This document shows, in pieces, positions 30,751 through 33,103 of a stretch of 33,311 nt of DNA. This stretch comes from Acidobacteriota bacterium (GTDB taxonomy: Bacteria > Acidobacteriota > Terriglobia > Versatilivoradales > Versatilivoraceae), in contig JAPPDF010000069.1 of NCBI GenBank assembly GCA_028875575.1, forward strand, positions 1 through 33,311. The letters are read 5' to 3'. Position 1 is the stretch's first letter, and the number at the start of each line of letters is the position of its first letter. The translations under genes were made by a program, and so were the position numbers. The notes under the pieces are model-generated. The model made no database searches. It was not told the origin of the DNA and saw only the letters and a list, made by a program, of their open reading frames with translations.

Positions 30751-31920
30751 TCAGTCTCGCCAGGCGAAGGAAGTCCCGTTCTCCCGCCGGTGCTGACGGA
30801 TCACCCGCTTGAACTCTTCGAACAGGTAGCGGGAATCGTGCGGGCCCGGGGAGGACTCCGGGTGGTACTGGACGCAGAACAGCGGTTGGCTCCGGTGACG
30901 GAATCCCTCCAGGGTTTGATCGTTGAGATTGACGTGGGTCACTTCGATGGATTCAGGCAGGGAGGAAATATCCACGGCAAATCCGTGGTTCTGAGCGGTG
31001 ATCTCGACCTGCCCCGTCTGCATGCGCATCACGGGGTGATTGCCGCCGTGGTGGCCGAATCTCAGCTTGTAGGTGTTGCCGCCCACGGCCAGACCCAGGA
31101 TCTGATGGCCCAGGCAGATCCCCAGGATCGGCTTCTTTCCGATCAGCTCCCGAGCTGTCCTTATCGCATAGGCGACCGGCTCCGGATCTCCCGGGCCGTT
31201 GGAAAGGAAAACGCCGTCGGGGTTCATTGCCAGGATTTGGGCCGAGCTGGTCCTGGCCGGAACCACCGTCACTTCGAACCCGCTGTCCACCATCAGCCGC
31301 AGGATATTACGCTTGATACCGAAGTCCAGGGCCACCACCCGCAGCGGCGGCTCCGCCGCATCCGCATTGGAAGCATTTGGGGAGGACTCCGCGGCAAAGA
31401 TGTCCACCGACGGCTCCTCCCAGCGGTAGGCGTTGCGGCAACTGACCCGGCTTGCCAAGTCCCGCCCCACCATCTCCGGCGTCTGACGCACCTTGTCAAC
31501 CAGAAGCTTCCGATCCACCTCCCCGCTGGCGATGGCGGCGCGCATGGCGCCCTGTTGCCGGATATGGCGCACCAGGGCCCGGGTGTCGATCTCGGCGATG
31601 GCCACGATGCCGTGCTTCTCCAGATAGTCCGGCAGGGTCTCGTCCAGGCGCCAGTGGTCGCCGCTGTCGGTGGCTTCCCGCACCACCAGCCCTTCGGCAA
31701 AGGGTCGGCGGGACTCCTCATCCTCCGAGTTGACCCCGTAATTTCCGATCAGGGGATAGGTCAGCACCACGATCTGACCGGCATAGGAGGGGTCGGTGAG
31801 AATTTCCTGATAGCCGGTCAGGGAGGTATTGAAAACAACTTCGCCGAATGTCTCGCCCCTGGCGCCGATGGACTTTCCTTCGAAAATCAAGCCGTCTTCC
31901 AGGGCGAGCACTGCTTCCAT
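30751..31920 (-). CDS. carA: Carbamoyl phosphate synthase small subunit
   Basis: The glutaminase subunit that feeds ammonia to CarB. The 389-residue protein has the N-terminal CarA domain (ALEDGLIFEGKSIGARG, NTSLTGYQEILTDPSYAGQI) and a class I glutamine amidotransferase domain with the triad C269 in ILGICLGHQ, H353 and E355 in QYHPE. SNGPGDPEPV is also typical. The ATG at 31920 is chosen because MEAVLALEDG is the family start and AGGGA lies 7 nt upstream; an in-frame start at 31953 is less likely. It abuts carB with no gap. A linker at about 175-192 is Asn/Ala-rich. Confidence 0.97.
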   Translation of the reverse strand: MEAVLALEDGLIFEGKSIGARGETFGEVVFNTSLTGYQEILTDPSYAGQIVVLTYPLIGNYGVNSEDEESRRPFAEGLVVREATDSGDHWRLDETLPDYLEKHGIVAIAEIDTRALVRHIRQQGAMRAAIASGEVDRKLLVDKVRQTPEMVGRDLASRVSCRNAYRWEEPSVDIFAAESSPNASNADAAEPPLRVVALDFGIKRNILRLMVDSGFEVTVVPARTSSAQILAMNPDGVFLSNGPGDPEPVAYAIRTARELIGKKPILGICLGHQILGLAVGGNTYKLRFGHHGGNHPVMRMQTGQVEITAQNHGFAVDISSLPESIEVTHVNLNDQTLEGFRHRSQPLFCVQYHPESSPGPHDSRYLFEEFKRVIRQHRRENGTSFAWRD

Positions 31921-31988
31921 GGATGGTCCCTTTCCGCAGCAGGAGTCGGACACGGATTCATCAGTCCGCGTCCCATTCGACGGGGCGG

Positions 31989-32021
31989 CTGATACAGGGT
32001 GAGACCGGAGTGCTTCAAAAC
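31989..32021 (+). repeat. 33-bp imperfect direct repeat, copy 1
   Basis: Matches 32196-32228 at 24 of 33 positions without gaps. Both copies read as related peptides in the plus direction: LIQGETGVLQN here and LIEGETRVFQT in the other. Five of nine differences are at third codon positions, hinting that both derive from a coding sequence. This copy ends one base before the heptad element begins. Confidence 0.6.
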
Positions 32022-32022
32022 G

Positions 32023-32163
32023 AGTGATTAGTGGTCAGTGGTCAGTGGTCAGTCTTGGAAGCAAGCATCTTGTTCACTGGCGGCACTCTTTGAACAACTG
32101 CGCCGAGACCGACACGATGCTTTAGGTTTCGATCAAATAACTATCCACTAGCCACTCTTCACT
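32023..32163. repeat. Inverted phased-heptad repeat element (AGTGNNN type)
   Basis: The left arm (32023-32054) is AGTGATT then AGTGGTC three times. The right arm (32141-32163), on the other strand, reads AGTGAAG, AGTGGCT, AGTGGAT, AG. Over 23 aligned positions, 17 match, and all six mismatches fall in the last two bases of the heptads, so the core AGTGR is what is kept. The interior of about 86 nt contains a possible four-helix-bundle gene end. Like the cassette at 12523, the reading frame stops inside an arm. Confidence 0.75.
32042..32139 (-). pseudogene. Possible four-helix-bundle (23S rRNA IVP-like) protein remnant
   Basis: A short minus-strand frame ends VNKMLASKTDH and stops within the left repeat arm. 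A neighbouring frame just upstream reads QLFKECRQ, so a one-base shift would give LFKECRQ followed by VNKMLASKT. This resembles the C-terminal helix of four-helix-bundle proteins (PF05635), which often end in a KML-x-x-LI-x-x-L type helix. The rest of the gene is missing. The resemblance is short and could be chance. Confidence 0.35.
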
Positions 32164-32195
32164 TGGCCGCGCCGCCGTCCCAAGCAGCAAGCCGA

Positions 32196-32228
32196 CTGAT
32201 AGAGGGCGAAACACGAGTGTTCCAAACA
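32196..32228 (+). repeat. 33-bp imperfect direct repeat, copy 2
   Basis: This is the partner of 31989-32021. The plus-strand frame continues past the repeat as TSPTLLGVACLY, whereas copy 1 stops at the heptad element. Copy 2 therefore looks like the fuller version and copy 1 like one interrupted by the element. Confidence 0.6.
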
Positions 32229-32326: not shown

Positions 32327-33028
32327 ATGACAACGCCTCCAGCCTCCGTCATCATTCCCGTCTACAACGAGGAACCGGGGATCGCCCGAGTCATTGCCGA
32401 CATTCCCCGAGACCTGGTTTCCGAAATCATCGTAGTCGACAACGGGAGCACCGATCGGACCGCCATGAAGGCGCGGGAGGCCGGCGCCCGGGTCGTTTTC
32501 CAATCCGACCGCGGCTACGGCGCCGCCTGTCTGGCCGGGATTGCCGCCCTGCCCCCGGCTACCGAGGTGGTTCTCTTTCTGGACGGCGATTACAGCGACG
32601 ACCCCGCCCAGGCCAGCGATCTGCTCCGCGTCCTGGAGGAACAACAGGCGGACCTGGTGCTGGGCTCCCGGACCCGGGGATGCCCGCAACCGGGTTCCCT
32701 GACCCCGCAGCAGCGGTTCGGCAACTGGTTGTCGACCACTATTATTCGACTGATTTACGGCCACGCCTATACCGACCTGGGGCCTTTTCGAGCTATTCGG
32801 CGGGAAGCGCTGTCCAGGCTCGACATGCAGGATCGAACCTACGGCTGGACGGTGGAAATGCAGGTCAAAGCCCTGCAGCAGGAGCTCAAGGTAGTGGAAA
32901 TTCCCGTCAGCTATCGGCCGCGCCTGGGCCGCTCCAAGGTTTCGGGGACGCTCTCGGGAACGGTCAAGGCGGGATTCAAGATCCTGTGGACCATCGCCCG
33001 GCTGAGCCTCCGCCACCCCTCCTCCTGA
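32327..33028 (+). CDS. Family 2 glycosyltransferase (polyprenyl-phosphate sugar synthase-like)
   Basis: A 233-residue GT-A glycosyltransferase without membrane helices. VIIPVYNEEPGIARVI and VVDNGSTDRT bind the nucleotide sugar, FLDGDYSDD holds the metal-binding D86 and D88, and YTDLGPFRAIRREAL and RTYGWTVEMQVKA are typical of the DPM/DPG synthase-like branch. It ends in GRSKVSGTLSGTVKAGFKIL, a conserved tail in this branch. It probably transfers a sugar to a polyprenyl phosphate at the cytosolic membrane face. No ribosome binding site is near the ATG. It is transcribed away from carA, and a terminator-like hairpin lies 117-139 nt after its stop. Confidence 0.9.
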   Translation: MTTPPASVIIPVYNEEPGIARVIADIPRDLVSEIIVVDNGSTDRTAMKAREAGARVVFQSDRGYGAACLAGIAALPPATEVVLFLDGDYSDDPAQASDLLRVLEEQQADLVLGSRTRGCPQPGSLTPQQRFGNWLSTTIIRLIYGHAYTDLGPFRAIRREALSRLDMQDRTYGWTVEMQVKALQQELKVVEIPVSYRPRLGRSKVSGTLSGTVKAGFKILWTIARLSLRHPSS

Positions 33029-33103
33029 TGGGGCTAAAACTATCCCTTCGGGCGGATCATGCGAGAGTGAAACAGGAGCCTCTTACGAACCTCGGAGACT
33101 GGG

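Follow-up and report, generated by a model that had tools for sequence, protein, structure and literature searches.

Analysis of the window, the whole 33,311-nucleotide stretch of DNA studied here (on contig C69 of the 4.49-Mb source genome G000), revealed that an element of about 140 bases at 32023-32163 is very probably a decayed, internally deleted, non-coding (MITE-like) copy of a cassette, in which a PF05635 gene lies between a heptad array and an inverted heptad array. Across many phyla, the majority of the PF05635 genes sampled are bracketed likewise, and this gene-specific heptad bracket around the family is statistically strong. As far as the open literature searched shows, the bracket is new: no paper in it links PF05635 genes with heptad arrays, most subscription journals being outside its scope.

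The original prediction described an AGTG heptad element with a possible four-helix-bundle gene end. The element is real, with four AGTGRNN heptads facing about three inverted ones. The features at and around it are as follows.

30751-31953, minus strand: carA (TIGR01368, E=7e-153), then carB
31964-32019, plus strand: left REP-like repeat (CGTCCCATTCGACGGGGCGGCTGATACAGGGTGA...), which belongs to a dispersed repeat of the genus
32023-32053, plus strand: left heptad array, AGTGATT, then AGTGGTC three times, then AGT
32054-32139, no strand: element interior, without an open reading frame and differing between family copies
32090-32140, plus strand: 3'-end remnant of a PF05635 gene (23S rRNA intervening sequence protein, four-helix bundle), LNNCAETDTML*VSIK*
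32140-32163, minus strand: right heptad array, inverted, ACT, ATCCACT, AGCCACT and CTTCACT (= ACTATCCACTAGCCACTCTTCACT)
32171-32226, plus strand: right REP-like stretch, a direct, diverged copy of the left one; a single copy is found at the site in G005 and G004, which are without the element
32327-33028, plus strand: family 2 glycosyltransferase gene

The left array has the top TRF score in the window (48). The arrays are no product of chance. A triple-heptad pattern, AGTGGNNAGTGGNNAGTGG, matches 45 times in G000 and 3 times when reversed as a control, and seven genomes of the genus have 41-75 matches each. These genome-wide counts rest on pattern searches. The window element itself matches dozens of places per genome in the genus and none in six searched genomes of other genera. 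An Rfam search returned nothing of note. Shuffled sequences fold as well as the window strand (z=-0.8), and a selected hairpin in this copy was rejected. The window copy lacks coding capacity; it is probably inert and, taken alone, looks like a dead remnant of little interest.

The gene end was predicted on the minus strand, as LFKECRQ and, one base out of frame, VNKMLASKT. Both words are literally present, the second as VNKMLASKTDH* and extending into the array, but they are not a gene end, because the two frames score 31 and 23 where the shuffle mean is 24, and the minus-strand PF05635 reading was ruled out. Comparison of the interior with PF05635, proposed as a check, did detect similarity: a plus-strand frame at 32090-32140 aligns best with the C-termini of intact PF05635 genes in the genus, with a score of 38 that was equalled by 2 of 300 shuffles. 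A four-helix-bundle gene tail is therefore present in the heptad cassette, on the opposite strand to the predicted one and at the opposite end of the element. At the DNA level, the likeness of the interior to the gene end was reached by none of 2000 shuffles. The plus-strand tail is independently backed, because the orthologous copy in the sister genome G006 is better kept (RRSLNNRAETDKMRNVSIQQLSTNH against RRLLSDCAEIGKMLNALIKSLTTNH, score 59 versus 38 for the window) and other copies in G000 agree. The recognisable PF05635 likeness of the window fragment is limited to the C-terminal tail; consensus tail peptides, at 24-25 aa, are too short to give a Pfam hit.

A survey for intact four-helix-bundle genes in such arrays, the other proposed check, found one in the same genome. 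G000 has two intact PF05635 (23S_rRNA_IVP) genes. One of them, the parent L001 (C67:74112-74429), lies between AGTGG arrays; it was found in the genome search with E=4.7e-38 and passes the curated Pfam cut-off (E=7.7e-39, 132.6 bits versus 33.8, positions 1-106 of 106). Its heptad, AGTGGNN, is the same as that of the window element, its final codons run into the right array (...CAEIGKMLNALIKSLTTNH*), and the cassette encodes PF05635 alone. Eighteen arrays in G000 are paired with an inverted partner, mostly at a spacing of 90-220 bp. All 18 paired copies partly keep the 3' end of the gene, about 15 to 50 nt, beside the same array, as judged by matches to nt 450-530 of intact cassettes or, for L036, by eye only. 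Their interiors are otherwise variable, and several include a REP-like hairpin repeat, the one that is also present on either side of the window element. These gene-less copies are internally deleted, MITE-like derivatives. Two genomes, G001 and G006, contain many arrays yet no PF05635 match, which counts against the explanation that we favour below. The second intact gene of G000, L002 (C78:4106-4408), belongs with L139 and L143 of the same genus to a second, distant PF05635 lineage, which has another heptad, GAAGTTT, as its bracket. Arrays of GAAGT are plentiful in most genomes of the genus; this pattern is no clean test there, because its reversed control also matches heptads.

The arrangement was examined across sampled genomes of the class, which supplied 90 complete PF05635 genes; an array was called when at least 16 of 21 positions matched at lag 7. 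Arrays were detected within 50 nt past the stop codon in 59/89 genes and in the upstream bin from -100 to -50 in 46/89, and beyond 300 nt in 0-1 of about 87. Lags of 5, 6, 9, 10 and 11 gave nearly nothing and lag 8 a few. Two PF05635 loci of genus g7 (L059 and L063) have flanking repeats of period 8, not 7. With a slightly looser array call, 56/90 genes of the class had arrays on both sides. The upstream array matched the reverse complement of its own gene's downstream array with a median score of 48, compared with 10 for that of another gene and 8 in the direct orientation, and 53 of the 56 pairs exceeded the 95th percentile of mismatched pairs. Even without array detection, flanks matched in inverted orientation in 72/86 genes of the class, where about 5% were expected. 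The same result was obtained from 80 further genes, found by scanning named genomes with a 6-sequence alignment and belonging to Acidobacteria, Planctomycetes, Bacteroidetes, Clostridia, Proteobacteria, Chloroflexi, candidate phyla and one Methanophagales archaeon. Their flanks were inverted in 58/71 (about 5% expected), and lag-7 arrays occurred in 42/80 at the stop and in 41/77 within 100 nt upstream, against a background of 2-9 of about 70. The archaeal locus, L202, scores 29, barely over the threshold of 25. Among annotated four-helix-bundle/S23 genes of finished cyanobacterial plasmids, 7/8 have such inverted arrays; for example, GGGAGTA arrays surround a PF05635 gene between nrdB and nrdA on Nostoc edaphicum pNe_5 (L298, NZ_CP054697.1). 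On pANA02 of Anabaena sp. 90 (L300, NC_019429.1), a PF05635 cassette is wedged between cas6 and cas4. The downstream array begins at a median of 3.5 nt past the stop, and a typical array has about 4 units after calibration with simulated arrays. An apparent mode of 5 units fell to about 4 once counting bias was removed, and the idea of one heptad per pentamer subunit was left unsupported.

The heptad varies by gene (AGTGGTC, AGCTATC, AAGTTTG, AATGATG, AGGTGTC, AAGTCGG and others), and this variation follows the protein. Between genera, the share of pairs with near-identical heptads climbs from 0.1% at less than 30% protein identity to 23% at more than 60%, and heptad similarity correlates with protein similarity (Mantel r=0.23, 0/500 permutations). 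Joint inheritance of the two on a single cassette might be enough to produce this co-variation. An AG core is common to the heptads (2.43 bits versus 1.68 in column-shuffled controls). Outside the genus of the window, TCAGC arrays were found in 23/37 genomes with PF05635 and in 0/17 without it (p=1e-5); AGTGG arrays alone showed no significant tie to PF05635 presence there (p=0.12). Inverted TCAGC and AGTGG elements without a gene, their interiors unrelated, are common in other genera as well. At one locus (L264, G033 C14), the arrays are nested: a tract of CAGTTNT-type heptads lies within a TCAGC-type element, as if one had been inserted in another.

Orthologous sites differ among related genomes. 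G006 has the window element; G005 and G004 lack it. The site of the intact cassette has in G003 nothing but the pair of arrays, set back to back (AGTGATTAGTGGTCAGTGGTTAGTGGAGTAACTGACCACCAGCCACTGACCACTGATCACT), and in G004 the arrays enclose a different interior. Element bodies are inverted relative to their flanks in sister genomes (L016 compared with G006 and G004; L022 compared with G004). The insertion L015 is wholly missing in G005, and in G000 it consists of REP, element and REP. Such sites, variously occupied, vacant, inverted, without the gene or filled again, speak for mobility or rearrangement. A search of the copies for a target-site duplication gave none that was consistent, and most copies show no flanking direct repeat. 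A long one (about 56 bp) was first suggested by G005 and G004. It lost weight when the duplicated stretch proved to be a dispersed REP-like repeat and when most other copies showed no repeat at their flanks. By flank identity, G005 is the closest relative; recombination between the two REP copies may have removed the element there. We identified no transposase or other mobilising enzyme for the cassette. The REP-like hairpin repeat of the genus (GGGCGGATCATGCGAGAGTGAAACAGG) also occurs at 33030-33075 of the window and inside L006, L018, L028, L034, L035 and L042; it is commoner near and inside heptad elements than elsewhere (by a strict pattern, 5 in 26 kb near versus 1 in 53 kb far).

How can these observations be explained together? 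From the linkage, inversion, period 7, co-variation, gene-less derivatives, and empty and rearranged sites, we infer that a PF05635 gene and its arrays would make up a single selfish and mobile unit, in which protein and array are a cognate pair. Taken whole, with the window element as a decayed copy of such a unit, this explanation is reasonably probable. Its step of cognate recognition, in which the protein recognises its own heptad arrays, is more tentative, and we hold it at somewhat less than even. If the step is right, the protein, a homologue of a toroidal homopentamer, would probably bind its own AG-core heptads as single-stranded RNA or DNA; an alternative target of the predicted binding would be the hairpin that two inverted arrays can form. 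Heptad recognition would make the gene and the arrays a selfish unit, host functions or a recombinase or reverse transcriptase acting in trans might perform the movement, and array-only derivatives would spread or persist once the gene is lost.

Several known systems resemble the cassette in part. Intervening sequences (IVSs) of 23S rRNA that encode the S23/IVP protein, as in Coxiella and Leptospira, have been called parasitic or selfish, are sporadic and have no known function (PMC4990558). They share with the window family a protein of the same family inside an element with complementary ends (PMC4990558). They differ in that the window family has tandem heptad arrays as ends, intergenic sites and numerous gene-less copies; an IVS is inserted in a 23S rRNA helix and excised by RNase III, whereas the window copy is intergenic, between carA and the glycosyltransferase gene. 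The Xanthomonas member of the family is a toroidal homopentamer of four-helix bundles (PMC4990558), and the profile match to it (XCC0516, 2gsc) has E=1.4e-34. The window element is also non-coding and multicopy with inverted terminal repeats and, like MITEs, short and internally deleted from a longer coding parent; unlike MITEs, its family has tandem arrays as ends, and neither a transposase parent nor a clear target-site duplication was found for it; a transposase might be supplied from elsewhere. We file the heptad bracket with selfish elements having S23/IVP proteins and with MITE-like derivatives. The PF05635 family is further considered homologous to Avd (PMC10053308). The intact protein of G000 matches bAvd, the accessory protein of diversity-generating retroelements, at E=5e-6, under the curated cut-off of the bAvd family, and the likeness to bAvd is one of protein homology alone, between four-helix-bundle proteins.

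Published heptameric repeats form another group for comparison. Passages of two papers describe TAACTGA in Beggiatoaceae, cyanobacteria and Bacteroidetes (PMC4679880), and GGGAATC in Xanthomonas and GGGGA(C/T)T in Nostoc (PMC4692102). Such heptamers have no agreed origin, and these passages propose translational regulation or G-quadruplexes. They resemble the arrays in being dispersed, mostly intergenic 7-bp direct repeats with some inverted pairs. When compared with the sequences given there, closely similar heptads flank PF05635 genes in our data (TCAGTTA-like; GGGAGTA in Nostoc). The searched passages of the two papers do not mention the PF05635 family. It is possible, at a little under even chances, that PF05635 proteins and inverted heptad arrays constitute an unrecognised, widespread class of prokaryotic selfish elements, in which a ring-shaped protein would read a gene-specific cognate heptad and many unexplained heptamers would be solo footprints. 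In that case, the 23S rRNA intervening sequences would represent insertions of such elements into rRNA, and the class may account for the heptameric repeats of Xanthomonas, Nostoc and Beggiatoaceae, published without an origin. PF05635 is a widespread function-unassigned family, and the rRNA intervening sequences, its best-known members, are without an agreed role; a gene-specific bracket that changes together with the protein is an obvious candidate for the substrate of the family. It also provides a simple annotation rule for many gene-less repeats like that of the window.

Autoregulation rather than mobility is a live rival, which does not exclude the selfish unit, because the arrays hug the gene, the downstream one so close to the stop. 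The arrays would then be operator-like sites in mRNA or DNA bound by the ring protein, and the scattered pairs would be regulon targets or decayed copies. The homology to Avd is in line with this. However, the arrays are inverted on both sides and not upstream only, the dispersed copies carry the 3' end of the gene and arise at new sites, and the interiors flip and are replaced between species; we regard the explanation as unlikely. Slightly less likely still is that the arrays are primary, with hairpin-prone heptad tracts expanding, inverting and duplicating by replication slippage and template switching and the PF05635 gene as a captured passenger. Template switching at inverted repeats would be expected to yield one-site inversions and interior swaps such as those seen, and array-only elements with unrelated interiors are indeed common in several genera. 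But a strict period of 7 at PF05635 genes, nearly absent at GxxExxY genes and more than 300 bp away, and the tracking of protein sequence by heptad sequence argue against it.

It is improbable that the flanking REP-like repeats placed the window element via a REP-type transposase, with the heptad arrays as incidental cargo. Direct REP-like copies do flank the window element, as in the L015 insertion. Against this, such flanking direct repeats are missing from most copies, and PF05635 genes also have arrays around them in phyla in which none of these REPs was seen. Moreover, neither of the two Y1 transposase genes found in the genome is accompanied by a REP-like copy, which leaves mobilisation by RAYT through REPs unsupported. 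A chance repeat with a chance peptide, in an ordinary intergenic heptad tract unrelated to PF05635, can practically be dismissed: the window copy is short, degenerate and folds no better than shuffles, but every genome of the genus contains many relatives that share its layout and gene end.

GxxExxY (PF13366) genes have a similar bracket with a different array. Two protein families in one architecture, as the original prediction put it, holds as far as the bracket: inverted short-repeat flanks exceeded the 95th percentile of mismatched flanks at 20/28 GxxExxY genes in the same 61 genomes, and these, like the PF05635 cassette, are small function-unassigned genes between inverted short-repeat sequences. 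It does not extend to the arrays, since the flank units of GxxExxY genes are 8-12 bp and loosely spaced, in contrast to the period-7 arrays of PF05635, and a period-7 array was found near 0/30 of them. A gene-less inverted short-repeat pair of the kind that flanks GxxExxY genes (ccacgaagaatcacgaagaac... / ...ccttcgtcgtccttcgtgtcccttcgtgg) lies in the window at 2380-2545, and is probably a remnant, without its gene, of the cassette that the original prediction had in mind.
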